Shown here: piece after piece, positions 10,276 through 33,394 of the stretch
Layout of the letters: every line of letters starts with the position of its first letter
How positions within the stretch are numbered: the stretch's first letter is position 1
From: Paraburkholderia sp. IMGN_8
GTDB taxonomy: Bacteria > Pseudomonadota > Gammaproteobacteria > Burkholderiales > Burkholderiaceae
Assembly (NCBI RefSeq): GCF_038050405.1
Contig: NZ_CP150900.1
Span: 868,001-932,000, forward strand
Reading direction: 5' to 3'
Length of the DNA: 64,000 nt
Notes under the pieces: generated by a model
Databases searched by the model: none
What the model was told of the DNA's origin: nothing
What the model saw: the letters and a program-made list of their open reading frames with translations, nothing else
Translations under genes and position numbers: made by a program

Positions 10276-10349
10276 TGGAGCGGGCGATGGGAATCGAACC
10301 CACGGCTCTAGCTTGGGAAGCTAGGGTATTACCATTATACGACGCCCGC
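10276..10349 (-). tRNA. tRNA-Gly(CCC), island integration site
   Basis: The reverse complement is a 74-nt tRNA with acceptor stem GCGGGCG/CGCCCGC, D-arm AATGGTAATAC, anticodon stem CTAGC/GCTAG with loop TTCCCAA (anticodon CCC), T-arm GTGGGTTCGATTCCCAT, and encoded CCA at 10276-10278. It decodes GGG. Its first 40 nt and 7 bp of 5' flank are duplicated at 33315-33361. The present 5' half and promoter side therefore come from the island. Confidence 0.97.
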
Positions 10350-10356
10350 AGAGCGC
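10310..10356 (+). repeat. attL: 47-bp direct repeat, left copy
   Basis: Identical to 33315-33361. It covers the tRNA-Gly anticodon stem-loop back to the 5' end plus GAGCGC. The core holds the palindrome AGCTTgggAAGCT, a typical crossover site for a tyrosine recombinase. After 3 mismatches the match resumes for ATTTTAC. Confidence 0.92.
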
Positions 10357-10537
10357 GCTATTTTACAGGGGTTTCGGCGCTTTGGGGAGTCGGGATCGTG
10401 TTCAGTGGCGTGAAAAGTGTATGCACTTCGGGATTTTTCGCTGGCATCGCTCGGAGAGCGATCTGTCGCCCGCGGTGAAGGGGCCAGTTCAGAGTTCGGC
10501 GTATGATCACACCTTCTATTGCTACAGGCGACTGGCG

Positions 10538-17473: not shown

Positions 17474-18295
17474 ATGATCAACTCACATCTTGTAGAGCGT
17501 GCCGCCAATCTGATTCACGACGCAGATGCGCTGATTATAGCGGTAGGCGCTGGGATGAGCGTCGATTCAGGGTTGCCGGATTTCCGTGGATCAAATGGTC
17601 TGTGGACAACTCTTCTCCCCAATGGTATGCGAGAACGCGATATCCAGTCATTGACGCAGGGAGACTGCTTTGCGAGGGATCCGGTAGCCGCGTGGCGTTT
17701 CTATGGGCGAGCACTGCAGGTTTGTAGCCAAACAGTGCCGCACGAAGGATACGGGATACTCCTTCGCTGGGCGGAACGGGCGACGCATGGTGCATTTGTC
17801 TATACGAGTAATGTCGATGGTCACTTCCACGCTGCGGGATTTGACGAGGAACGCGTGGTCGAGTGCCACGGATCGATCAACTTTATGCAATGCACAAAGC
17901 CGTGCTGTCCCTCGATCTGGGCGGCGGGGAGCATGGCGGATGCGTTGGGAGATATTAATCGTCTCACTTCCGAAAATCTACCGCGATGTTCGTACTGCGG
18001 TGGGGTTGCGCGACCGAATTTCCTGCTATTTTCTGACCCGGCTTGGCTGGCATCACGAACGTCTAAGCAGCAAATGAATTTTCAGCAGTGGCAGAAGGAA
18101 GCGCGGAAGGCAGTCGTAATCGAGATTGGCGCCGGACTTGCTTTGCCTAGTATCCGTATGTTTTCTGAAAGTCTTGGCATCCCGCTGATTCGAATCAACC
18201 CGGAGGATGCGGGCATTGGGGACCTTGAAGGAGTCGCCTTTCGGGGTTCGGCATTAGCAATGCTTCGGTGTATCGATCGGGAAATGGTCAATTAA
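17474..18295 (+). CDS. Sir2-family NAD+-dependent protein
   Basis: 273 aa with the Sir2 fold. Visible motifs: NAD-binding GAGMSVDSGLPDFRG (residues 25-39), TSNVDGHF (111-118), catalytic His132 in ECHGS, and a zinc-ribbon pair C140/C144 and C172/C175. Length and motifs fit a single-domain sirtuin (lysine deacylase, ADP-ribosylase or NADase). Stand-alone Sir2 domains also act in anti-phage systems, and the island setting makes this plausible, but no fused sensor domain is present. The start has only a weak RBS. Neighbours are a small operon upstream and a membrane protein gene 150 bp downstream. Confidence 0.88.
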   Translation: MINSHLVERAANLIHDADALIIAVGAGMSVDSGLPDFRGSNGLWTTLLPNGMRERDIQSLTQGDCFARDPVAAWRFYGRALQVCSQTVPHEGYGILLRWAERATHGAFVYTSNVDGHFHAAGFDEERVVECHGSINFMQCTKPCCPSIWAAGSMADALGDINRLTSENLPRCSYCGGVARPNFLLFSDPAWLASRTSKQQMNFQQWQKEARKAVVIEIGAGLALPSIRMFSESLGIPLIRINPEDAGIGDLEGVAFRGSALAMLRCIDREMVN

Positions 18296-20437: not shown

Positions 20438-21583
20438 TTAGGCCGGTTGCAACAGCGAATCGATGACCCTGACGGCCTTCCGGCTCGCATCGTTCGGGCT
20501 CAGATGCGCATATCGCTGCGTCATCTTCGGGTCGCTGTGGCCGAGCAATACCGATACCTCGTACAAACTTACGCCGGCTCTGACTAACTTGCTCGCGAAC
20601 GTGTGTCGCAGCGTGTGAAGGGTGACGCGTCCGCCGCGTTCCTTGACGACTGCCGGATCATTTAGCCCCGCGCGCTCGATCGCCTTCTTGATCGATTTCG
20701 TGCTGTAGCCGCGTTCATTGCCGGTGCGATCTTCAAAGACGTACCGCTGACCGGGTCTGCGTTCTTCCCACCGGCGACGAAGAATCGCTTCGAGTCGCGA
20801 GGTCATGTGCAAGACATCCTCGTTTCGTACTTTGCTCCGGTACAGACTGATTGTGCATGCATCGAGGCTGATCGCCGACCACGGAATGTTTGCGACCTCG
20901 GAATAGCGACACCCCGTATCTAGCAGGAAAACTGTGATGTCGTAGTTGTCCTGCACATTCCGCGTCATCTCAGGTGTTCGCGTTTCTAACGGCTTTAAAC
21001 CGTTTCTAAGCCGCTCCGGATCGAGTTCGAGCAATAACGCCGACTCTTCGCTGGAATCCAGATATCGAAGCCTATAAGAAGTCTTAAGCGCTGGAAATAC
21101 GATTTCGCGATTAACTTTGAAGCCGAGCTTTGTCATCTCGTTGATGGTTGCGCGCAGCAAGCCAATCTCGTGCTTGATGGTCGCTGGCTTGTCGCCTTCG
21201 GCCTTGCGTTTGGCGACGAGGACTTCGAAATCACGCGTTGTCAGTTCGTGCAGCAGCATGTCGGGCGAAAATCCATAACAGGGAAGCTTCGCCTTCGTCT
21301 TCGAATGAAGCTTGTACCCCATCGCTTTCCGGATGCCTGACCACATGCCGCTGTAATAGGCGGTGCCCTTGCGGGACTCAACGTATTGCTCCAGCGCGTC
21401 CTTGACGGTGATCTCTGGGGCATCGCCAAGATACCGCTCGCTGTGCGCGCGATTGCGGACTTCGCGTTCGACCTGCGCGGCTTTCGTCTTGTTCGGCGTC
21501 CCGGTCGAACCGAAGAACTTCTTTCCCTGAATCTGGAACTGGTAGTACCAGTTCTTGCTGTTGTTTCGACGGATGAGCGTCAT
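20438..21583 (-). CDS. int: tyrosine recombinase / site-specific integrase
   Basis: 381 aa. The C-terminal catalytic domain has the full set Arg226 (DTGCRYSEV), His323-x2-Arg326 (HTLRHTFASK), His349 (LLGHSD) and Tyr358 (QRYAHL). The N-terminal arm- and core-binding region covers residues 1-170. It is the only recombinase in the island and the natural candidate for integration into tRNA-Gly(CCC). The start ATG at 21583 has AAGGAG 6-7 nt upstream, and both lie in the 3' arm of a 12-bp hairpin. It sits mid-island rather than adjacent to an att site. Confidence 0.93.
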   Translation of the reverse strand: MTLIRRNNSKNWYYQFQIQGKKFFGSTGTPNKTKAAQVEREVRNRAHSERYLGDAPEITVKDALEQYVESRKGTAYYSGMWSGIRKAMGYKLHSKTKAKLPCYGFSPDMLLHELTTRDFEVLVAKRKAEGDKPATIKHEIGLLRATINEMTKLGFKVNREIVFPALKTSYRLRYLDSSEESALLLELDPERLRNGLKPLETRTPEMTRNVQDNYDITVFLLDTGCRYSEVANIPWSAISLDACTISLYRSKVRNEDVLHMTSRLEAILRRRWEERRPGQRYVFEDRTGNERGYSTKSIKKAIERAGLNDPAVVKERGGRVTLHTLRHTFASKLVRAGVSLYEVSVLLGHSDPKMTQRYAHLSPNDASRKAVRVIDSLLQPA

Positions 21584-21842: not shown

Positions 21843-24083
21843 TTAAGCCGAGACACGATCGTCGTCGCCGGACATCCGGTCAAGAAGCGTCTCCTGCCAG
21901 TCCTTCCGCCGTTGCTGGACCTCGTCGTGTATGAACCGATGGCCGACATAGGCACCCGTGTTCTCGTTGAATTCGAGGTCCACGACCAGCCTCAGGCCCT
22001 TGTAGACCCGATGGGGCCTAGATGCCGGCTTGTACCCCTTGTCCTGCAATATCATGCCGAACCGCTTGCCGGAATACGCGAAGTTGTACTGCGACTCGCT
22101 CCATGCCTTGAAGAACTTATAAGTGTCGCCGAAGTGGATTTCGCCTTCCGGGTCGTTGCGGGTGAACTCTGAGAGCCAACTGCTCACGATGTCCATTTCG
22201 CCGCGGTACTCGGCGACCTCGTTCGTGATGACCTGGGGTTCATTGAGCTTATACCCGTTCTCCCGCCAGTGCTGGCAGCCGACCAGGGCCCAGTTCAAGA
22301 TGCCGGGCAGTTCCGCGCACAGCTTACGCTCAAGGTCCGGGTCGCGCTCTTCAGGCGGAATCGTGACCGTGAAAGGGATCAACTTCATACGACGCCAGAT
22401 GCCGTGGTCGGAGCCCTTGACCGTCGGCTTGTAGTTACCAGCGAGCCAGAGCTTGAACCGGGGCTTGAACTCGAATGCGTTCTGGTACAGCATGCGCGCC
22501 GTGATGACTTCGCCGCCGGTATACCACTTCACGGTCTTCTCGCTAAAGTGCCGTCCGTCTTCGACTTCGCTCATGGCGACGAGGCGTTTTCCCATCAGGC
22601 GGGCGACTTCGCTGCTCGCTGCGTTCTGGCTCATGCCCGCTGCGCCATTTTTTTCGAGGAGCATGTCGCCGTTGGCCTGCGCGCCGAGATCGCCGAACAG
22701 AGCACGCAGCACATTGAGAAAGGTTGATTTCCCGTTCGCACCACTGCCGTACGCGAAGAACAAGGCGTGTTCCGATGTCTGGCTGGTCAACGTGTAGCCG
22801 ATGGCGCGACGCAGGTACTCCACCAGTTCGACATTGCCGCTCATGATCTGCAGCAGGAAGGCTTCCCATATCGGGCAGGTGGCATCCGGATCGTAGTCCA
22901 CTGCTGCAGTATACGTGATATGCAGGTCTGGCCGCATCGGCATGAAGGTGCCGGTCTGCAAATCAATGAGTCCATTCCGGACGGGGAGCAGCCAATCGCC
23001 CTGATCAAGGTCGATTGCCGAAACCGCGATACCGGACTCCGACCGGAACAGATCGACGGCGTTCTTCAGGCCAGTGTTGCTCTCGGTATATTGTGCGTGC
23101 AAAGCCATTGACTGGCGATTGCCGGGTGACAGCCGAAACATCTCCTCGTAGATCAGGGCGATCAGTTTCCGGGCGAGGAAGAGCACATGCAGTTCATCGA
23201 CGCGCCGCCAGACCCCCGAGCTCTGTTTTTCCAGCCACTGTTTGGTTTCACTCACGTAACGAAGCGACTCACGGTACAGTTCGGACATACGCTTCGCGTT
23301 GCCGAGGTCGGTCGTGTGCATGACACTGCCGACGTTTTCCTGATGCGACCTGATGACGTTCACGGCGGTTTGCGCGACCTCGGACTCGGGGAGCGGCGGG
23401 TTGCAGCAATCTGCGTTGTACTCAAGTAACTCCTCTTCCAGCCGATCGGGGTCGAGACCGCCGTTGAGCAGGGAGAACGCATAGAGCATGATCGACTGGT
23501 TGCGATTGCCTGCAGGGACAGGCTTGGCCTTGGCAAACTTGCGTTTATGGCTAGTAGTGCCATGCTTGGCGAGTTCTTCCAGCAGCTTCGCAGGTGCGGG
23601 TTCAATCGGGGTGCTCCGATCGACCCAATCGTATTCTTCACCGTTGATGGAAGAGGGCGGAGCAACGCAATAGGCGCCGTCACCCCGGACGTCGATGCCC
23701 TCGCGGAATCCAACCTTGCTCCGAATTTTCATACCTTCGGGGTATGTGTACAACTTGTGAAATCCCCCTGACGGCGTCAGCACCGTCCGGGTTTCGGGGA
23801 AAGGGCCAAGCTCTTTTTCGAGGGCGATGTATGACTTCGCGCCGGATTTCTTGTTTTTTACATCGACGTCGATCACGAGCAGGCGTCCGGACGGAGTCCC
23901 AGTAGCGTATGCAATGTTCGAGTTGGGGAATTGCTTTGCCCACGCCCGATGTTGCTCGGGGTCCAGGCTCGCGTCCTTAAATCCGTTTGACGTGAGGGGG
24001 CGTTTTTCGTTCGGAACAATCGGGAAGCAGGCGAAACCCTCGGCGGCAAGGACGGAGTATTTTTTGACTGGATCGATATTCAT
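21843..24083 (-). CDS. P4-type primase-helicase (PrimPol-D5-SF3)
   Basis: 746 aa replication protein of phage-satellite and plasmid type. Residues 1-190: bifunctional primase-polymerase domain with the metal-binding pair in LLVIDVDVK (D72, D74), SGGFHK (H109) and DVRGDGAYCVAPPS. A PriCT-like middle region follows. The C-terminal helicase has Walker A GSGANGKST (about residue 445), Walker B-like VAMSEVEDG, and FKLWLAGNYKP with GIWRRMKLIPF as in P4 and D5 proteins. It probably unwinds and primes the excised element. No RBS stands out before ATG 24083. A strong terminator follows. Confidence 0.93.
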   Translation of the reverse strand: MNIDPVKKYSVLAAEGFACFPIVPNEKRPLTSNGFKDASLDPEQHRAWAKQFPNSNIAYATGTPSGRLLVIDVDVKNKKSGAKSYIALEKELGPFPETRTVLTPSGGFHKLYTYPEGMKIRSKVGFREGIDVRGDGAYCVAPPSSINGEEYDWVDRSTPIEPAPAKLLEELAKHGTTSHKRKFAKAKPVPAGNRNQSIMLYAFSLLNGGLDPDRLEEELLEYNADCCNPPLPESEVAQTAVNVIRSHQENVGSVMHTTDLGNAKRMSELYRESLRYVSETKQWLEKQSSGVWRRVDELHVLFLARKLIALIYEEMFRLSPGNRQSMALHAQYTESNTGLKNAVDLFRSESGIAVSAIDLDQGDWLLPVRNGLIDLQTGTFMPMRPDLHITYTAAVDYDPDATCPIWEAFLLQIMSGNVELVEYLRRAIGYTLTSQTSEHALFFAYGSGANGKSTFLNVLRALFGDLGAQANGDMLLEKNGAAGMSQNAASSEVARLMGKRLVAMSEVEDGRHFSEKTVKWYTGGEVITARMLYQNAFEFKPRFKLWLAGNYKPTVKGSDHGIWRRMKLIPFTVTIPPEERDPDLERKLCAELPGILNWALVGCQHWRENGYKLNEPQVITNEVAEYRGEMDIVSSWLSEFTRNDPEGEIHFGDTYKFFKAWSESQYNFAYSGKRFGMILQDKGYKPASRPHRVYKGLRLVVDLEFNENTGAYVGHRFIHDEVQQRRKDWQETLLDRMSGDDDRVSA

Positions 24084-25284: not shown

Positions 25285-25395
25285 GTTAAGCTAATGATCT
25301 GGCTCAAAAATCCCTGTTGGATCAAGAGGATATAGCGCTGGCGCGTAAGGATGGCGTGAAAACTGTCACTGTTGCTCGTCGGACTTCGCTGTGGT
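25285..25395 (+). repeat. dispersed repeat, copy 1 of 3
   Basis: Shares with 26584-26697 and 29153-29261 the order TTAAGCTAATGATCTGGCTC, then GGATCAAG, then GTGAAAACTGTCACTGTTGC. Copies 1 and 3 stay similar downstream for about 230 bp, into a gene that is intact only in copy 3. Confidence 0.75.
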
Positions 25396-25487
25396 CGCCG
25401 TCGCGTAGGTCGTGTTTGCTTGTTCACCATTGCATTGAAGGGAGGTCTGCTAGACCTAGATGCACTTTCACCGAATGGGATGAGACC

Positions 25488-25628
25488 GAGGTTGATCGAA
25501 AGCAAGGTCAACGAGCAGGGACGAGAAGGTGGCCAGGCCGGCTACTGCGGCAACCATTTCGAAGGGAAATAGTCCTGCAGCGAAGGCGGCACCGGCTACG
25601 CCGACCAAAATGAAACTGGCGACGGAGA
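25488..25628 (+). pseudogene. decayed copy of the 100-aa gene at 29357
   Basis: The start codon is altered (ATG to AGG at the aligned position) and the frame is broken, but GCAGCGAAGGC, CACCGGCTACGCCGAC and GAAACTGGCGACGG match the coding sequence at 29460-29510 closely. The 3' part of the gene is missing. It is a degenerate duplicate carried with dispersed repeat copy 1. Confidence 0.65.
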
Positions 25629-25683: not shown

Positions 25684-26325
25684 TCAGGCTGCTTTGCGAC
25701 CGGCGTTGTCTGCGGCTTCTTTGAACGCCTGTTTCCAAGTTTTGCTGCCCGTGAGTGTTGAACGTACGACGGTGATCTTCTGACAGTCTTCGATGTTATT
25801 TATGATGTTTCGCGTCGTCGAAACAATAGACTCTGGTAACCAAGGACTGAGAAGGACGCGTGAAATGGTATCTAACGGGATTTCGACATCGAAATACGTG
25901 TGTTTCTTGTCTGCGCTTTCATAGATTGCACGAAACTCGTTCTCGTGCCGGTAGCCCCAACGCTTCGTGAACGGCAAGTCGTCGAGCTTCAGTTTCCCTT
26001 CCTCCAGGTCCGCCAGCTTCTTGTAGGTGACCTTCTTGTGACGCACTTTCTTTTCATCAAAGGTCGCCAGCAACTTGTCTTTGTCAAATACGATACATGC
26101 ACCACCGGCGCCGCCCGCGAACACGTGCCAATGATGATATGTCTCATCGCCCCAAGCGAAGCAAAGCGCAACAACAGACGTCAATTCCTTTCGTTTGCGA
26201 TACAACTCCATGCCCGATGAGTCGTTACTGTCATCCCACTTTTTGGGGTCAAGCAATGTGAGCTTTCCGTTTTGAAGCATGTGTAGCAGCGACGGTAGAT
26301 TCGTGTAGCGACGGAGTATTGTCAT
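25684..26325 (-). CDS. DUF2971 domain protein
   Basis: 213 aa. The N-terminal LRRYTNLPSLLHMLQNGKLTLLDPKKWDDSND and a central ALCFAWGDETYHHWHVFAGGAGGACIVFDKDKL, followed by YRHENEFRAIYE, are characteristic of DUF2971 proteins. The biochemical role is unknown; members are common in defence islands. ATG 26325 is used, though its AGGA is unusually close; a GTG at 26355 would add 10 residues. Flanked by dispersed repeat copies 1 and 2, so it may have been mobilised with them. Confidence 0.8.
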   Translation of the reverse strand: MTILRRYTNLPSLLHMLQNGKLTLLDPKKWDDSNDSSGMELYRKRKELTSVVALCFAWGDETYHHWHVFAGGAGGACIVFDKDKLLATFDEKKVRHKKVTYKKLADLEEGKLKLDDLPFTKRWGYRHENEFRAIYESADKKHTYFDVEIPLDTISRVLLSPWLPESIVSTTRNIINNIEDCQKITVVRSTLTGSKTWKQAFKEAADNAGRKAA

Positions 26326-26830
26326 TTCCTGATTCCCGTTATTTTTTAATTGCACATGCGCCAGTGGTCAACCAACAGCCTATCTTATCGTCAAGTTGTA
26401 GCTCAACTTGAGTGCTTGTGCTGTAATCGAGCCTGTCCACAGCGAGCACGGCGCCCGGAGTGTTCGGAAAACCGACTCTTCAACCCCAGCTTCTCGACTT
26501 TGCAATCACCATTCGTTCTCTAATGCTAAAGGCGGTGTGTCATCTGCGAATGAAACAGGGCCAACCGGAGGTTCGTCCTACTGTTAATAAGCTCATGACG
26601 TGGCTCGAAAATTCCGGTCAGATCAAGGGGATGGCACAGGTTCGAGTGAGGGTGACGTGAAATCTGTCACTGTTGCGCGCTGAATTTTTGAAGTGGCAGC
26701 TATCGTATTGATACGATGTGGGCACGAATCGACGTTGCTGCCGACTGGGCAGCAATCCGATCCATGTGCGCCAATTCATTTAGCATGTAGAGGCGTGCAT
26801 AGAAAACGCTTCGATCTGCGGGGAACACTC
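26326..26830. other. intergenic region with dispersed repeat copy 2
   Basis: About 500 bp between divergent genes. It contains an open frame at 26523-26660 (MLKAVCHLRMKQGQPEV then NKLMTWLENSGQIKG) that runs into repeat copy 2 at 26584-26697. In copies 1 and 3 the aligned frame carries stop codons. The frame may be the surviving C-terminal end of a lost gene. No other feature is seen. Confidence 0.5.
26584..26697 (+). repeat. dispersed repeat, copy 2 of 3
   Basis: Matches copies 1 and 3 across TTAATAAGCTCATGACGTGG, CTCGAAAATTC, GATCAAGG and GGGTGACGTGAAATCTGTCA. The conserved GTGACgtgaaaNctGTCAC part is a 5-bp inverted repeat. Ends 133 bp before the 268-aa gene. Confidence 0.72.
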
Positions 26831-27637
26831 ATGAGGGTTTCGGATCCAGAGTATCAAAAGCACGTCCTCTTCGACGAGCTGGAACGGTATGCCCGATTTT
26901 ACGAGAGCCTCGCCGATGGCGTTTTCCAGTTCGTCTCTGTGGGAACGACTGCAATCTGCAATATCGATACTTACGTTTACTCCGCGATTGCGGGCACGAT
27001 CGCATCCATCAGCATGGTTCTACGAGATGGTCGGATCAACGATGCCTATGCCCTGTTGAGAAAATACTACGATTCGGCCGTGATCAACGTCTATTCGGAC
27101 CTGTACCTTCGAGAGCACCGCAAGGGATGGGATTTCACCGCGAAGACGCTACTGGCTGAGCAGATCAACGGTTGGCTGCATGGTCGAGTGAAGTTGCCCG
27201 AGTACCGCGTGATGTCTAATTACATACGGTCTAGTGAAACGCTTCGTACGATCAACAGCGTTCTCCATGCGGACGATAACTACAAGAAGATCCGAAACCG
27301 ATGCAACGATAACACTCACTATAATTTCTTCGAAAACGTCATGCTGAACAATCGGGAAGTGTACAACCGCAACCGAGGTACCGCTCTCGAACAGATCCGG
27401 TTGGACGCGATTGCGATCTTCGTTCTCCACTTCTCCTATGTGGTCTCGGTAAACGAACATTACGTGATGTCGGGTGACTACATGGATCATATGGAGTGCG
27501 GATCAACCCCTCCTGACGGATGTGAGTATTGGGTCGCACCCTACGCACGAGAGACGTTCGACTCGATCCTGCGGGTCCACAGGCCGGATCTGGCAGAAGC
27601 CATTCAAAAAAATAGCGCAATGCAATTTGATAGCTGA
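26831..27637 (+). CDS. unknown protein with a HEPN-like R-x5-H motif
   Basis: 268 aa, largely helical, family not recognised. Residues 152-168 read KKIRNRCNDNTHYNFFE, where R157-x5-H163 in a helical, Asn-rich context fits the Rx4-6H active site of HEPN ribonucleases. The N-terminal half (LERYARFYESLADGVFQFV; NDAYALLRKYYDSAVINVYSD) could supply the other helices of such a fold. ATG 26831 is chosen because the 46 upstream codons overlap the repeat-derived leader. It ends 70 bp before the HEPN/Toprim gene. RNase activity is an inference. Confidence 0.65.
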   Translation: MRVSDPEYQKHVLFDELERYARFYESLADGVFQFVSVGTTAICNIDTYVYSAIAGTIASISMVLRDGRINDAYALLRKYYDSAVINVYSDLYLREHRKGWDFTAKTLLAEQINGWLHGRVKLPEYRVMSNYIRSSETLRTINSVLHADDNYKKIRNRCNDNTHYNFFENVMLNNREVYNRNRGTALEQIRLDAIAIFVLHFSYVVSVNEHYVMSGDYMDHMECGSTPPDGCEYWVAPYARETFDSILRVHRPDLAEAIQKNSAMQFDS

Positions 27638-27707
27638 CGATAGGTCGATTGCTTTAAGCACGCAATTCCTTCACCACCGTTATCAGAGCAACGACGACAG
27701 AGCTACC

Positions 27708-29021
27708 ATGAGCACTGAAATTTCTCTTGAAGTCGGCGGGATGACCGTTGATTGGAGTCAAAATGTAAGGGGTAAAGATCACGGTCCTCTCTACCAGGAG
27801 CAGGACCGCAAACGCCTTGAGTGCGATGGAATCGACTACGGATACTTCGAAAGGGAAGGGCAAAGCCCCGCTGGGTTTGAAATGTCGTTCAGTCGGTCGC
27901 TTGACGCCATCGTTCCTCGTCTGGAATTGCTGGGTTTTCGTCTGGATACAGTTCGTCACTTCTATGAAGTGGCCACGAAGCAGTGGCGGGAGGATCGACT
28001 TGCCCTATTGGAAGCTTTCGATACCAACGGAGCCGAGGCGGAGGCGGTCCCCGAACCGATGAGTTTCGATGAATATTTGGACTTCATTAAAGCCTATCCG
28101 ATCGAAGCCCTGAGCGGCGAAGTTATCGAGGATATAAATGATGAAGGTGAGCGAATATTCCGGGATCGGTTCGGCGGTAAAAAACAACTTGCGCGTATTC
28201 CCGGTGATTCAGACGGCAAGAGTTGGGCGTATTCGGAAAGGTCATTTTTTGGAGCTTTGATCGATTTTCTCGGCCCGTACTCGATGTTGCGGCTACTTGC
28301 CGAATGCCCGGCCAACCGACGCCTAACCGTGGATTGGAGATACGGTCCATTAGTTGAAGAAGGGCGAGCAAGCGTAGATGAGTTCACTCCTTGCGCGCGG
28401 CGGAGGCAAACTTTCCTAATCGTCACTGAAGGATCATCGGATGTCCATATCCTGACGCATGCGATTCAGTTACTGCGGCCCGAGGTGGTCGATTTCTTCC
28501 GTTTCATCGATGTCAGCGAACGACATCCTTTCTCGGGCACAGGAGGGTTGGTTAGGTTCGCTGAGGGGTTGGCAAAGATCGACGTCCAGAACAAGATCGT
28601 ATTCGTGTTCGACAATGATGCTGAAGGCGTTGATGCTTTAAAAACGGTGCGCCGGTTTAAGTTGCCTCTTAATATGGGAACACTGGTCTTGCCTGACATG
28701 CAGGAGTTCCGGCAGTTTCCCTCGCAGGGGCCCGATGGCGTTAGAAATTCGGATATCAATGGGCGAGCAGCCGCAATCGAGTGCTACCTTGACCTGAACC
28801 TCCCGCAGTACGGACCGGCCAAAGTCGTGTGGACAAACTACAAGAGGGACAGCGGTGTCTACCACGGCGCCTTGGAATACAAAGAATCGTATGCCAATGA
28901 GTTCTTCGATCAGAAACGAGAGACGATCCGGGACGGCCGCTACGACGTGAGTAAGATTGAGCGCGTGCTGGATGCGTTGGTGGAAGAATGCAGTTGGTTA
29001 GCTGTTGCGGAGTTTTGCTGA
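27708..29021 (+). CDS. HEPN/Toprim-domain protein
   Basis: 437 aa. The N-terminus STEISLEVGGMTVDWSQNVRG resembles the family annotated as HEPN/Toprim N-terminal domain. The C-terminal half has a Toprim-like core: IVTEGSSDVHIL with Glu241 and Asp245, then VFVFDNDAEGVDAL with Asp302 and Asp304, i.e. the Glu plus DxD metal-binding pattern of OLD-type nucleases and primases. Such proteins are predicted conflict-system effectors or sensors. ATG 27708 is taken at the family start; the upstream open frame overlaps the preceding gene. Probably co-transcribed with the 268-aa gene 70 bp upstream. Confidence 0.8.
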   Translation: MSTEISLEVGGMTVDWSQNVRGKDHGPLYQEQDRKRLECDGIDYGYFEREGQSPAGFEMSFSRSLDAIVPRLELLGFRLDTVRHFYEVATKQWREDRLALLEAFDTNGAEAEAVPEPMSFDEYLDFIKAYPIEALSGEVIEDINDEGERIFRDRFGGKKQLARIPGDSDGKSWAYSERSFFGALIDFLGPYSMLRLLAECPANRRLTVDWRYGPLVEEGRASVDEFTPCARRRQTFLIVTEGSSDVHILTHAIQLLRPEVVDFFRFIDVSERHPFSGTGGLVRFAEGLAKIDVQNKIVFVFDNDAEGVDALKTVRRFKLPLNMGTLVLPDMQEFRQFPSQGPDGVRNSDINGRAAAIECYLDLNLPQYGPAKVVWTNYKRDSGVYHGALEYKESYANEFFDQKRETIRDGRYDVSKIERVLDALVEECSWLAVAEFC

Positions 29022-29356
29022 CAGCGAACATTGCTCAATTAATTATTCTCGCCACCCCTGTAAATTTGCCCGCACGTGGCCGGTTGCGATCCGCGGCGTA
29101 GCGGCGGATTGTGCGTCGAGTCGAATGACGAATGGTAGCGCAGCTTAACCCCTTTAAGCTAATAATCTGGCTCGAAATTCTCCGTTGGATCAAGGAGATA
29201 TAGAGCCGGTGCATGAGGGTGACGTGAAAACTGTCACTGTTGCTCGATGAATTTCGAGGTGGTCGGCGTTGTGTTTGTCGTAGTCGTTCGCTTGCCGTTG
29301 CCTTGAAGGTGGATCTCCTGGACCCTGGACGCACTTTCAACGAATGGAGTGCGATC
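29022..29356. other. intergenic leader with dispersed repeat copy 3
   Basis: 335 bp between the HEPN/Toprim gene and the 100-aa gene. It holds repeat copy 3 at 29153-29261 and, after it, a segment similar to 25396-25487. No open frame of interest. It probably contains the promoter of the 100-aa gene, but no clear -35/-10 pair was fixed. Confidence 0.5.
29153..29261 (+). repeat. dispersed repeat, copy 3 of 3
   Basis: TTTAAGCTAATAATCTGGCT, CGTTGGATCAAGG, GAGGGTGACGTGAAAACTGT and CACTGTTGCTCG match the other copies. Only here is the downstream gene intact. Confidence 0.75.
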
Positions 29357-29659
29357 ATGGTCGATCAGAAGCAAGGCGTGGCGGGTAAAGACGAGAAAGC
29401 AGGTAAGCCTGTTGGCGCCGACGTGAAGGCAAATGTCGGTACTGCGACGACGAACGATACCGCAGCGAAGGCTGAACCGGCTACGCCGACGAAGATGGAA
29501 CTGGCGACGGAAATCTACAAGCGGATGCGTTCCGTCAAGGACGTGACGCGGAAAGACATCATCGAGAAGTTCATCTCCGAAGTGAAGCTGACGAAGGCGG
29601 GAGCGAGCACTTACTACCAGATGATCAAAGACAAGCACGAGCCGATGGGTAAGAAGTGA
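29357..29659 (+). CDS. small basic protein, possible DNA-binding regulator
   Basis: 100 aa. The N-terminal 45 residues are low-complexity (Lys, Ala, Thr, Gly). The C-terminal half (MELATEIYKRMRSVKDVTRK, then DIIEKFISEVKLTKAGASTY, YQMIKDK) is helical and reads like a small winged or HTH domain known from many Burkholderia hypothetical proteins. ATG at 29357. A UUCG-loop terminator follows 24 bp after the stop. A decayed copy lies at 25488. It sits between the HEPN/Toprim pair and the retron-like locus. Confidence 0.72.
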   Translation: MVDQKQGVAGKDEKAGKPVGADVKANVGTATTNDTAAKAEPATPTKMELATEIYKRMRSVKDVTRKDIIEKFISEVKLTKAGASTYYQMIKDKHEPMGKK

Positions 29660-29682
29660 CGGCCGGATTGCGGGAACAGAGG

Positions 29683-29704
29683 GCTCCTTCGGGAGCTTTT
29701 TTTT
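29683..29704 (+). terminator. intrinsic terminator (TTCG tetraloop)
   Basis: GCTCC (29683-29687), loop TTCG, GGAGC (29692-29696), then eight T. Ends the transcript of the 100-aa gene and isolates the retron-like unit downstream. Confidence 0.9.
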
Positions 29705-29726
29705 CGTTCCGACGAAAAGGGCAGTT

Positions 29727-29796
29727 AGTGAACTCGTCGAAATATTCACACACAGTGAACATTTGCCTTGCACGTGTTGATTTTTCGTGGTCTACT
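29727..29796 (+). promoter_or_regulatory. promoter of the retron-like locus with repeated half-sites
   Basis: TTGCAC (29768-29773), 17-bp spacer, TCTACT (29791-29796), predicting a start near 29803. Just upstream, GTGAAC occurs twice on the plus strand, with TTCAC between them, as three possible half-sites (29727-29760) for the XRE protein of the same locus. Confidence 0.55.
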
Positions 29797-29802
29797 GCTT
29801 CT

Positions 29803-30094
29803 CGCAGGCTAGGCGTATCGCCTAGGTGAGCAGTGGCATTTTCCCATCACGTCGAGGAATCAGTTGTGCATTTGCCCGTCCGGCAGAACGCGGAACGGGC
29901 GGCTCTAGCGTCCAGGGTTAGAGAGGTATCGGTGCGCGGGTCGGGTACGGCCGCGTCGAGGAAGCCGGATCGTCGTTCCGTTGTGGGACGACCGATGGGA
30001 CTTCCTCCAGCCGAAGGGACTGGTGTTGGGCTTGCGCGTCGGTTGGCTCCTTTCGATTCATTCGCCGTGAGGAACGTTGGGCTACGCCGATACG
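29803..30094 (+). ncRNA. candidate retron msr-msd non-coding RNA
   Basis: The 290-nt segment after the promoter has no supported gene and folds strongly. Hairpin 1: CTAGGCG-TAT-CGCCTAG (29809-29825). Hairpin 2: GCCCGTCCG, 8-nt loop, CGGAACGGGC (29874-29900). A long hairpin: GAGGAAG (29958-29964) with CTTCCTC (30001-30007) enclosing ATCGTCGTTCC-GTTGT-GGGACGACCGAT (29969-29996), which looks like an msd stem. CGTATCG (29814-29820) is complementary to CGATACG (30088-30094) and could be the a1/a2 pair. Short msr hairpins, then one long stem, bracketed by complementary ends and upstream of a reverse transcriptase, is retron architecture. Exact ends are guesses. Confidence 0.6.
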
Positions 30095-30132
30095 GGACAG
30101 CGGCGGTGGCGCCGCGTTCTGGGAGCTGCGAA

Positions 30133-30375
30133 ATGCAGAGAGATGCTTTAACAGTAGCAATCGCGACGCTGCAAAAGCTGCGCGAGATCTATCACAGCCA
30201 ACTCGACGCTAGTGTACTGGCGGAACTCGATGATGTACTCGAATTGCTGAAACAGCAGTCCGAACGCCTCGAAGTTGTTCGGCGTGGAGAACTCGAAGGC
30301 CGAGTTTTTCGCATCTTCGCAATGGTCTTGAGGATCGTGACTAACATCACGGATCTGATGGATCGTTGGCAGTAA
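30133..30375 (+). CDS. small helical protein of the retron-like locus
   Basis: 80 aa, entirely helical: a leucine-rich coiled-coil-like segment (AIATLQKLREIYHSQLDASV; LDDVLELLKQQSERLEVV) and a hydrophobic C-terminus (RVFRIFAMVLRIVTNITDLM) that could touch a membrane. GGGAG lies 7 nt before ATG 30133. Open frame upstream of this start belongs to the structured RNA region and is not conserved-looking. As I recall, one class of retron (type VI) carries a short unknown protein plus an HTH protein, which this order matches. It may be the toxic effector. Confidence 0.68.
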   Translation: MQRDALTVAIATLQKLREIYHSQLDASVLAELDDVLELLKQQSERLEVVRRGELEGRVFRIFAMVLRIVTNITDLMDRWQ

Positions 30376-30417
30376 AGCCAAGTCACGGCAAGCCCCACAG
30401 TTGATTGGGTGAGTACT

Positions 30418-30720
30418 ATGAACATGGGTCAGGCTATCAAGATGTGTCGGACTCGTAGGTCGTTGTCACAGGCTGAATTAGCGGGACTTGCGGGTTGTTC
30501 GATTTCTTACCTTTCCATGTTGGAAAGCAATCAAAGGGATCCGTCGCTATCCACTTTGAAGAGCATTGCTGGAGCGTTACGCATCCCAACGGAGATTCTG
30601 TTCTTTCTGGGATCAGATCGAGAAGAGCTTGCAGGTATGGATAAAGAACTCTCCGGTCAGCTCGCCCGCGCGGCGTTGGAGATATTGAGTGATACACATG
30701 AACCGGTCAGGGGTTCCTAG
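30418..30720 (+). CDS. XRE-family regulator of the retron-like locus
   Basis: 100 aa HTH_XRE protein: GQAIKMCRTRRSLSQAELAG (helices 1-2), CSISYLSMLESNQRDPSLST (recognition helix) and LKSIAGALRIPTEILFF, then a short acidic tail. GGGTGAG precedes; ATG 30418 or 30424 are both possible. It starts 42 bp after the 80-aa gene and its 3' end overlaps the reverse transcriptase start by 32 bp, so the three are translationally linked. It may repress the locus or act as part of a toxin-antitoxin-like unit. Confidence 0.85.
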   Translation: MNMGQAIKMCRTRRSLSQAELAGLAGCSISYLSMLESNQRDPSLSTLKSIAGALRIPTEILFFLGSDREELAGMDKELSGQLARAALEILSDTHEPVRGS

Positions 30721-31729
30721 GTACACGGCTACTCCCATAGAAAGTATGGCGGCATTGTCGCGAGCGCTGGGTGTAACAGCCGAGCAACTCGCTGCAGTCG
30801 CCGCCAAAGCTTCCTCTCTTTACCGAGTCGCGGACAAGATCGAAAAAGCGGACGGTACGCTCCGCGAAACGTTTGATGCGAAGCCGGTGTTGAAGGACAT
30901 TCATCGGCGGATCAAGCTGGCCATTCTCGATCGAGTAAGGTTTCCCAACTACCTGACTGGCAGTGTGAAAGGGCAGGACTATCGCACGAACGCGCTGCTG
31001 CATCGCAATTCAAAGATCCTGATTAGCGAAGACATACAGGGGTTCTTTCCCTCGACTACGCAGCATCTCGTGGAGGAAGTCTGGTCCCAGTTCTTCGGTT
31101 TTTCTGCCGACGTGGCACAGTGCCTAGCAGCTCTTTGCACCAAAGATGGCGCTCTCCCGCAAGGGGCCATCACAAGTCCGCATGTCGCGAATCTCGTCTT
31201 TTGGCGTGTCGAACCAGCGATACATGCGGAGATGGCGTCTCGAGGAATACGATATTCGCGATATGTTGACGATGTTTGTATTTCTTCCAGCACTGGCATT
31301 GCTCATATCGATAAGCAGTCAGTGATCGCAGTCGTGTACGCAATGCTGGCACGACACGGCTATTCTGCCAAACGATCGAAACACAAAATCCTGACGGCGA
31401 GCGGCCGCATCACAGCAACCAAGCTTGGCGTCAACGGGGATCCCAGCCTGTCAGGTCAGCAGCGAGGACAGATTCGCGCTGCCGTACACAAGCTCGAACT
31501 GACATTCGCGACTGGCGCTTTCTCGGAGGCGCGAGCGCTTTTACCCTCCGTCATAGGTCGGGTCAGCATGCTTGCGCGTTTTCATTCTACTGAGGGACAA
31601 GCGTTGAAGCGACGCATCGCTTTCATACGAGAGCAATTGCAGCTCGTCCCAATGGTGACAAAAAGAAAGAACTCGATTGACGTCGTAGTGCCCGTTGGGG
31701 TTGACGGCATGTCAACTGTTCCTTGGTGA
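30689..31729 (+). CDS. retron-type reverse transcriptase
   Basis: 346 aa. The order of RT motifs is clear: N101-A-L-L-H105 (the NAxxH signature of retron RTs), D115 in SEDIQGFFPST (palm Asp), PQGAITSP (157-164), YVDD (192-195) with the catalytic Asp pair, then KRSKHKILTASG. The retron VTG position reads ATKLGVN, a variant. No maturase or endonuclease domain, which argues against a group II intron. GTG 30689 has GGAG 7 nt upstream; ATG 30698 is the alternative. It would reverse-transcribe the adjacent structured RNA into msDNA. Confidence 0.9.
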   Translation: MIHMNRSGVPRYTATPIESMAALSRALGVTAEQLAAVAAKASSLYRVADKIEKADGTLRETFDAKPVLKDIHRRIKLAILDRVRFPNYLTGSVKGQDYRTNALLHRNSKILISEDIQGFFPSTTQHLVEEVWSQFFGFSADVAQCLAALCTKDGALPQGAITSPHVANLVFWRVEPAIHAEMASRGIRYSRYVDDVCISSSTGIAHIDKQSVIAVVYAMLARHGYSAKRSKHKILTASGRITATKLGVNGDPSLSGQQRGQIRAAVHKLELTFATGAFSEARALLPSVIGRVSMLARFHSTEGQALKRRIAFIREQLQLVPMVTKRKNSIDVVVPVGVDGMSTVPW

Positions 31730-31777
31730 TCTGCGCGGCAGCGACGCACGGCCGATTGGACATTGGTGAACTTAACT

Positions 31778-33061
31778 ATGAAGCGCAGCGAGTTATACGA
31801 AAGGGTCTGGTCGGCACCGATGACTAGGCTAGCCAAGCAGTTGGGAATATCGGACGTGGGTCTAGCCAAAGCTTGCCGTCGTCATGACGTGCCTGCCCCG
31901 CCCCGGGGTTACTGGGCCAAACTCGCCGCTGGGCACAAGCCCCCGCGAACTCCGCTGCCAAACCCGAAACTTGATGTCGAGGTGCATTTCACAACCCTTG
32001 ATCCCAACCAACTGGCGCGCAGAAGAGCCAATGAGAGTCGGCGCGCGGAGTTGCGACCGATATCGGATGCATCGGAGAAAGAACGAGCACCGATTGTATT
32101 CGCAACTGACCTCGAAAGCGCACATCCGTTAGTTAGGGCTACACACAGGTACTGCGACCGCCTTCCGCGCTTGATCGAGCGCGCCATGCGCAACCGGGGC
32201 AAGGGCTGGATAGATACAAAGCCGGAGGATCGCCCACCTCCTGAGCAGCATGGCCGGTACCATTTAATCCGGGAAGGATGCCTCGACATCAACGCATCAC
32301 TTGTATCCATGGACTGGATTCTGCTGTTCCACGCCACGCTTTTGCGCGGCCTGTCAGACGGCGGTATGAAGATCGTGAGGCTGGAGAAAACCGAAGCAAC
32401 GTACGCTCGGCGTCGTAGTGAAGCGGTAATTGAAATGAGACTGGGAGATGAGACTTTCTCGCTCAAGTTTTCCGAGGGGTACCGCCGTATTCGGCTTTCC
32501 CCGGCCGAGGTAGCGGAGAAACGGAAGGAATCGTCATGGGCGAGCGATTATGAGACGAAGCCGTCCGGAAATTTCACCTTCAGCATTCAGGGAACAGAGT
32601 ATCGGGCCAGTAAAACCTGGCAGGGCACGCAGGAAAAACTGCAAGGGCTTCTCGATGAGATCGTGCGAACAGCATTGCTGTTGCCCGCGCTGCAGATGCG
32701 GTTGCGAACAGAGCGAAAAGCTACCGAGGCCGATCAACAACGCGCAGCGGAGGCGCGAGCGCGAGAGCAGCGACGAAGCGATGCCCAAGCGGAACAGCTG
32801 AAGCAGGCTTTCCTCATGATGGAGGCGGACGCACGTGTTCAGCAGTTAAAGAGCTTTCTGGATCGGCTAGAACAGAGAGCCGACGATTTTCAGCCTCCCT
32901 ATGACGACCGGGTGAAGATATGGCTGAAGGTTGTCAGGAATGAACTCGCTGCTCGAAATCCGGCAGACGAGATTTTGTCCCGATGCGTTACTGTTCCATC
33001 GTGGACGACCTGGCCCCCTGCGTGGTGGCCGACCGATACCAAGCTAGATATCGTCGATTGA
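31778..33061 (+). CDS. unknown island protein with N-terminal HTH-like segment
   Basis: 427 aa. The N-terminus MKRSELYERVWSAPMTRLAK, then QLGISDVGLAKACRRHDVPA and PPRGYWAKLAAG, is a conserved block I know from many uncharacterised island proteins and has HTH character. A charged coiled-coil follows (about residues 305-365, rich in Arg, Glu, Ala and Gln). The C-terminus WPPAWWPTDTKLD is Trp-rich. It starts 48 bp after the RT stop, with no terminator between, so it may belong to the same transcript. ATG 31778 was chosen; GTG 31766 is possible. Confidence 0.72.
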   Translation: MKRSELYERVWSAPMTRLAKQLGISDVGLAKACRRHDVPAPPRGYWAKLAAGHKPPRTPLPNPKLDVEVHFTTLDPNQLARRRANESRRAELRPISDASEKERAPIVFATDLESAHPLVRATHRYCDRLPRLIERAMRNRGKGWIDTKPEDRPPPEQHGRYHLIREGCLDINASLVSMDWILLFHATLLRGLSDGGMKIVRLEKTEATYARRRSEAVIEMRLGDETFSLKFSEGYRRIRLSPAEVAEKRKESSWASDYETKPSGNFTFSIQGTEYRASKTWQGTQEKLQGLLDEIVRTALLLPALQMRLRTERKATEADQQRAAEARAREQRRSDAQAEQLKQAFLMMEADARVQQLKSFLDRLEQRADDFQPPYDDRVKIWLKVVRNELAARNPADEILSRCVTVPSWTTWPPAWWPTDTKLDIVD

Positions 33062-33314: not shown

Positions 33315-33361
33315 AGCTTGGGAAGCTAGGGTATTACCATTATACGACGCCCGCAGAGCGC
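33315..33361 (+). repeat. attR: 47-bp direct repeat with tRNA-Gly 5' half
   Basis: Identical to 10310-10356. It holds tRNA-Gly nucleotides 1-40 in reverse orientation plus 7 bp of 5' flank, and no 3' half, so it is a displaced fragment and not a functional tRNA. It marks the right end of the island. Confidence 0.92.
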
Positions 33362-33364
33362 ATG

Positions 33365-33394
33365 ATTTTACTCGAAAAAGGGTAGTTTGCGCAA
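33365..33394 (-). promoter_or_regulatory. original tRNA-Gly promoter, now orphaned
   Basis: On the minus strand TTGCGC (33389-33394) and TAAAAT (33365-33370) are separated by 18 bp and point at the tRNA 5'-half fragment. In the uninterrupted chromosome this would have driven tRNA-Gly(CCC). Confidence 0.55.

Follow-up and report, generated by a model that had tools for sequence, protein, structure and literature searches.

In a 64,000-nucleotide stretch of the Paraburkholderia sp. IMGN_8 genome (contig NZ_CP150900.1, positions 868,001 to 932,000 of the forward strand; the whole stretch is called the window here and positions are counted from its first letter), we found a locus that, judging from its sequence, is very probably a type VI retron. 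It comprises a structured RNA followed by genes for a small protein, an XRE-type helix-turn-helix (HTH) protein and a reverse transcriptase (RT) (Table 1). We provide a map of the putative msr-msd RNA for a type VI retron, including the a1 and a2 strands and a candidate branch point. The genome around the window is 9.1 Mb in two contigs, and the closest relatives of the RT with named genomes are Paraburkholderia species.

Each of the three proteins had its own type VI profile in PADLOC-DB as its best match. For the RT, RT_VI scored best (4.2e-73) and RT_V second (1.2e-58). Among the NCBIfam models, retron models came first (the St85 model at 4e-37, below its cut-off), ahead of group II intron (2.1e-9) and Drt2 (8.1e-5) models, and the best matches among solved chains were also retron RTs, with Ec86 at 4.7e-38. 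The placement of the RT in the retron clade is by profile match. These results bear out an earlier note on this DNA, which had proposed a type VI-like retron. The same note had suspected a divergent RT because the VTG motif is replaced by ATKLG. This suspicion was not upheld. In an alignment of 13 RTs including that of the window (A2), VTG was intact in one sequence and altered in the other 12, so the ATK of the window is ordinary for its clade. The catalytic DD and the histidine of NAxxH were invariant in this alignment, with NAxxH as such present in 10 of the 13 sequences.

The three open reading frames (ORFs) were all present as described before, with NALLH and YVDD in the RT. They lie head to tail at 30133-31729, and the start of the RT gene overlaps the HTH gene. 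The small-protein frame is open upstream to a GTG at 29833; the SP_VI profile match begins at the ATG at 30133, and in four relatives (L005, L006, L020 and L028; L numbers denote related loci) the equivalent ATG is the only listed in-frame start with a ribosome-site-like sequence. A terminator-like site (29678-29701) separates the retron genes from the upstream gene. The sigma70-like promoter claimed earlier stood in part: a strict sigma70 scan of 29640-31850 reported no promoter there, and reading the sequence by eye revealed a weak candidate with a TG before the -10 element, whose TTG and TCTACT, with their spacing unchanged, were kept in each of the five sequences of an alignment that includes the window (A1). 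The presumed -10 element ends at 29796, about 335 nt before the small-protein ATG.

To map the RNA, we aligned nine loci (the window, L015, L016, L018, L005, L024, L028, L020 and L006) with MAFFT localpair and derived a consensus structure with RNAalifold; L017 was aligned and then dropped before counting as near-identical. For each helix we counted how many of 500 shuffles were as high, meaning that they reached the observed number of paired cells. The 5' hairpin was paired in 63 of 63 cells, with 8 both-side changes and 0 of 500 shuffles as high. The a1/a2 helix (29854-29861 with 30055-30062) was paired in 52 of 54 cells, again with 8 both-side changes and no shuffle as high. Two msr hairpins and a hairpin before the small-protein gene were also found (counts in Table 1), while four other predicted helices were weak or invariant (11, 207, 45 and 500 of 500 shuffles as high). 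In a second alignment of 12 loci, most of them more distant (A5), the 5' hairpin was paired in 84 of 84 cells with a covariation of 0.736 versus 0.263 in shuffles, and none of 500 shuffles matched either value. Pairs changed on both sides (5 versus 3.3; 39/500) and further pair types (9 versus 8.6; 264/500) were not unusually numerous there.

The fold of the window's own RNA showed the same a1/a2 helix with an extension, hairpins 2 and 3, and the msd stem. The long msd hairpin lies between 29958 and 30007, where the fold pairs 29958-29964 with 30001-30007 and adds an inner stem. The fold energy of the region was unremarkable (z -1.6) and not convincing alone; the support for the RNA comes from covariation. 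In retrons the branching G follows a1, and an AG was located directly 3' of a1 in eight of the nine loci counted, the exception being L020; the G of this AG is our candidate. The presence of a predicted msr-msd RNA beside the RT operon, with a1 and a2 as its inverted repeats, is supported. The hairpins reported in the earlier note were confirmed, the region holding the 5' hairpin, msr hairpins 2 and 3 and the long msd hairpin, and the covariation it had named as a test was found for the 5' hairpin, a1/a2, hairpin 2 and the 3' hairpin. Its pair of complementary ends (CGTATCG at 29814-29820 and CGATACG at 30088-30094) did not hold up: CGTATCG is part of the 5' hairpin, and CGATACG differs in L015, L016 and L018, though not in L017. 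We also rejected an outer extension of the 5' hairpin (ACTGCT/AGCAGT), which reaches into the -10 element and is not kept in L015, L016 and L018.

We then examined the relatives of the locus. The order small protein, HTH, RT was identified by direct tblastn in L005-L008, L015-L018, L020 and L021, by annotation with a small-protein-like ORF in L024 and L025, and by an HTH match with such an ORF in L028. HTH and RT genes with a small-protein-like ORF upstream were found in L010, L011, L012 and L014. An HTH match lay beside the RT in 16 of 16 checked relatives with a small-protein-like gene, L082 apart, where none was found. The three-gene set was present in three named Paraburkholderia and one Burkholderia. 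The SP_VI profile matched in 9 of 398 family genomes, 5 of 369 class genomes and 8 of 144 genus genomes, samples that overlap and in each of which the window's own genome is counted. The RT_VI profile search of this genome returned the RT of the window and three weak RT matches. Two weak matches to this profile were observed in neighboring RT frames of 357 and 456 aa at G000:C2:510819-512909, a pair that is perhaps a two-RT defense system. A search of viral contigs with the RT of L021 found no relative. In Burkholderia phage KS5 (Peduoviridae; L080, 794-2093), an annotated transcriptional regulator gene is accompanied by an RT that matches RT_VI at 4.6e-78, which makes it a second type VI-like group.

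The surprising part of the comparison is a leader seen in relatives and absent from the window's own copy. Many type V and type VI relatives carry TGYTCTTTAAMA, or a sequence close to it, a few bases downstream of the 5' hairpin. We framed a rule for this leader after the motif had been seen (YTCTTTRA preceded, at a distance of no more than about 8 nt, by a stem of 6 or more pairs) and searched up to 1100 nt upstream of the RT in one representative of each of 33 RT locus clusters. On the sense strand, 18 of the 33 clusters had the leader, and on the antisense strand none did; of 3300 shuffles, 4 gave a hit. Clusters with a small-protein-like gene, an HTH match and an RT (type VI) carried it in 12 of 17 cases, counting L045 and L076, in which RT_V scores slightly above RT_VI. 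It was also present in 5 of 6 clusters with an RT_V RT (including L078 and L032, whose RTs scored RT_V) and in L082, and in none of the 9 other clusters. A hairpin with an rrn-type boxA (at most 1 mismatch) was observed in L010, L012, L014, L021, L025, L028, L031, L077, L078, L082, L083 and others. One genome (contig G164:C2) contains two different type VI retrons, L014 with boxA and L008 without. In L082 (G500:C131), the small protein and RT occur with the hairpin-boxA leader and no HTH gene was found beside them; this locus perhaps lies between types V and VI.

The motif was compared with the ribosomal operons. Searching for GYTCTTTAA and combining the hits with the 16S positions showed that all six rrn places in the genome around the window carry CGTTCTTTAACA, about 390-405 nt beyond the end of the 16S; the one leader inspected has CGATCTTTAAAA. 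Exact TGYTCTTTAACA occurred in this genome at one place, far from the 16S places, and GYTCTTTAAAAAT at none. In two relatives, TGTTCTTTAACA occurs 2.05 kb from a second boxA, and because of that spacing we interpret these places as rrn spacers. On this evidence, the retron leaders contain the boxA motif of the lineage's rrn operons. In rrn operons, boxA is bound by NusB/S10 and prevents termination by Rho, and it has been described in front of CRISPR arrays. If functional, the leader would place a host antitermination signal ahead of a defense RNA. It would account for the protection of a long, structured and untranslated RNA from Rho, and it matters for expressing these retrons outside their host.

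Several loci count against a general leader rule. No boxA was detected within 2 mismatches in 29700-30135 of the window, where the 5' hairpin is present, and five other places of its clade had no boxA core motif within 60 nt after the hairpin; the whole clade (the window, L015-L018 and L071) thus has the 5' hairpin without boxA. L047 and L027 also had no leader, and L083, L023 and L032 had near-matches at most. No leader was found in a second HTH_VI group (L039-L043, of which the one scored, L041, matched RT_VI at 1.5e-90) or in phage KS5. Among 16 RTs found with the II-A profile, whose types were not determined, the leader was found in none, with the stretches of L098 and L116 including part of the RT as their contigs start close by; of three known V/VI-like loci run beside them, two had it.

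The Shine-Dalgarno region of the small-protein gene is complementary to a pyrimidine tract immediately preceding a2, and it may base-pair there with the last stretch of the msd template. Across 22 loci, the short tracts scored 15.95 with their own partners versus 13.73 when permuted (5 of 50000 permutations), and across 17 divergent loci 15.41 versus 13.33 (73/50000); the nine core loci alone were not significant (6418/50000). This test was not blind, as the tracts were picked by eye after the pairings had been seen. A blind test, based on long segments and duplex energies, gave a negative result in 21 loci (own mean -23.7 versus -24.2 permuted, 15185 of 20000 permutations as good) and in the 17 divergent loci (12428/20000 as good). 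When the 22 loci were folded locally, no more than 5 of 60 controls scored as high in 6 of them; for the window, 28 of 60 did. We treat the masked ribosome site as a lead only, because the tracts were picked by eye, the blind test was negative and the folds exceeded the controls in few loci, the window not among them. In known retrons the RT starts next to a2, and therefore the tract before a2 would be copied first. A combined reading, which we regard as speculative and doubtful, is that type V and VI transcripts would start with an rrn-like antitermination leader, a hairpin and a boxA recognized by NusB/S10, through which RNA polymerase could cross the long untranslated msr-msd without Rho termination. 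In type VI retrons, the first-copied msd stretch next to a2 would in addition mask the effector gene's ribosome site. Reverse transcription and RNase H would then unmask it, tying effector synthesis to the synthesis of multicopy single-stranded DNA (msDNA); the clade of the window would have kept the hairpin and the mask and lost the boxA.

For the function of the locus, we find it fairly likely that it is a three-part defense unit of the toxin-antitoxin kind. A single transcript would contain the msr-msd RNA followed by the coding regions for the small protein, XRE protein and RT. The RT would prime on the 2'-OH of the G just after a1 and copy the msd from next to a2 into msDNA. The RT-msDNA complex with the HTH protein would hold the 80-aa helical protein inactive, or repress the operon, until phage damage to the msDNA, RT or HTH protein frees the small protein, which would then halt the host by means of the partly hydrophobic helix at its C-terminus. 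An island in tRNA-Gly would carry the unit as cargo. The small protein is the probable effector, a role assigned from its position and family only. Its structure model has three helices (residues 2-20, 26-49 and 54-79), with a mean predicted local distance difference test (pLDDT) score of 71 and a predicted template modeling (pTM) score of 0.45. A profile search of solved sequences returned a designed repeat protein first (1.3e-13), which we read as reflecting helical composition and not kinship.

Some observations weigh against this account. The structure model of the small protein is of middling confidence, the protein had no match over the cut-off in Pfam, and Foldseek with the model returned no match below an E value of 2.7. 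The proposed mechanism is modeled on retrons in general. For the RNA, the default MAFFT alignment of the same loci (A6) gave a consensus structure without a1/a2 and hairpin 2, so these two helices depend on the local-pair alignment. The covariation counts come from nine related loci, and kinship can inflate them. The search against RNA family models proposed earlier found no retron family in Rfam: the region had no match at the gathering score and three sub-threshold matches, all non-retron.

The locus could also be a type VI retron in which the small protein is not the toxin, with the HTH protein as the effector or sensor (e.g., a phage-gene repressor addressed by msDNA) and the small protein as an assembly or antitoxin partner. 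This is consistent with the lack of a toxin family match for the small protein and with conservation in L015-L017, where the HTH protein is conserved more strongly than the other two (99-100% identity versus 80-95% for the small protein and 88-89% for the RT). We nevertheless judge this arrangement unlikely, since the small protein, which is short, changes faster and ends in a partly hydrophobic helix, would be more effector-like than an XRE protein. That the locus is a degraded, inactive remnant on a decaying island is very improbable. Such decay is seen in L019, a remnant of this retron in which the 3' part of the RT alone is left, and the clade of the window does not have the boxA found in many relatives; against this, the three frames are intact, the RT keeps YVDD and NALLH, the RNA helices are kept by compensatory changes, and the three genes recur in the named Paraburkholderia and Burkholderia. 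A non-retron RT system (a defense-associated or abortive-infection RT (DRT/Abi), a diversity-generating retroelement (DGR) or a group II intron) with an unrelated structured leader would share the RVT_1 match, which is common to all these systems. This explanation is largely contradicted, and its chance is minimal in our estimate, by the RT_VI and sub-cut-off St85 scores compared with those of the group II intron and Drt2 models, and by the supported msr-msd RNA. The defense unit with the small protein as effector is the account that we retain.

The retron is located at one end of a 23-kb island bounded by 57-bp repeats. One repeat (10310-10366) is part of tRNA-Gly(ccc) and recurs at 33315-33371 with 94.7% identity. 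The tRNA-Gly repeat, the integrase and the Prim-Pol/D5, SIR2 and HEPN/Toprim proteins form a mobile setting, and the HEPN/Toprim gene is a probable further defense gene beside the retron. Pieces of the tRNA also flank the retron in L015 (4.5 kb apart) and L016 (6.8 kb), with one piece in the stretch examined in L017 and L018. A block of about 100-220 bp was observed three times in the island (25286-25507, 26588-26687 and 29154-29376; 77-79% identical) and was also matched in L017.

Table 1 Positions of the retron RNA, the retron genes and neighboring island genes in the window.
Feature	Position	Strand	Remarks
Probable promoter, TTGCAC, 17 bp, TCTACT, TG before -10	29768-29796	+	read from sequence
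5' hairpin of retron RNA, CTAGGCG-TAT-CGCCTAG, 7 bp	29809-29825	+	covariation; no recognizable boxA after it here
a1, 5' strand of a1/a2 helix, msr start	29848-29861	+	29854-29861 alignment-tested; 29848-29853 from the window's fold alone
Candidate branching G, in AG after a1	29863	+	inference
msr hairpin 2	29874-29900	+	nine loci: 46/46 cells paired, 9 both-side changes, 0/500 shuffles as high
msr hairpin 3, TCCAG in loop	29903-29923	+	nine loci: 41/44 cells paired, 4 both-side changes, 14/500 as high
Putative msd template region with long hairpin	29924-30054	+	fold; between msr hairpins and a2; limits inferred
Tract just before a2	30044-30051	+	can pair with 30121-30128, 8 pairs, G-U allowed
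a2, 3' strand of a1/a2 helix	30055-30069	+	30055-30062 alignment-tested; window's fold
3' hairpin before small-protein gene	30100-30115	+	nine loci: 51/52 cells paired, 4 both-side changes, 3/500 as high
Shine-Dalgarno region of small-protein gene	30121-30128	+	
Small-protein gene, SP_VI	30133-30375	+	80 aa, ATG start; PADLOC SP_VI 9.5e-29
HTH_VI gene, XRE-type DNA-binding protein	30418-30720	+	100 aa, ATG start; PADLOC HTH_VI 3.2e-27, Pfam HTH_3 1.7e-13
Type VI retron RT gene	30698-31729	+	343 aa, ATG start; PADLOC RT_VI 4.2e-73, Pfam RVT_1 2.7e-13; NALLH, YVDD
SIR2 protein	17474-18292	+	
Phage-type integrase	20441-21583	-	
Prim-Pol/D5 protein, satellite-like	21846-24083	-	
DUF2971 protein	25687-26325	-	PADLOC scores as PDC-S31
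HEPN/Toprim N-terminal domain protein	27474-29021	+	Pfam 3.6e-48

Compared with known systems, the locus shares with type VI retrons the same three protein families, the order small protein, HTH, RT and a structured RNA upstream. It differs from its type VI relatives in that the 5' hairpin of its clade is without boxA; the VTG motif is ATK, and most of the clade also departs from VTG. Type V retrons are the next closest, with RT_V as the second-best profile of the RT and the hairpin-boxA leader in five of the six type V clusters. None of these six clusters had an HTH match. In type V loci L026 and L030-L033, a short, unrelated-looking ORF is located upstream, and L077, on a small E. coli plasmid, carries CSD_V, which we take from its name to be a cold-shock domain protein, with a neighbor annotated as 'retron Se72 family effector protein'. 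The type V and VI leaders share with the rrn boxA the TGYTCTTTAAMA-like motif after the hairpin, whereas the retron of the window has no recognizable boxA. Ec86 (Eco1) and the other solved retron RTs are homologous to the RT of the window; Ec86 is filed in type II-A and has other partners. The system type is thus already known, and what is mapped here is the RNA of this one.

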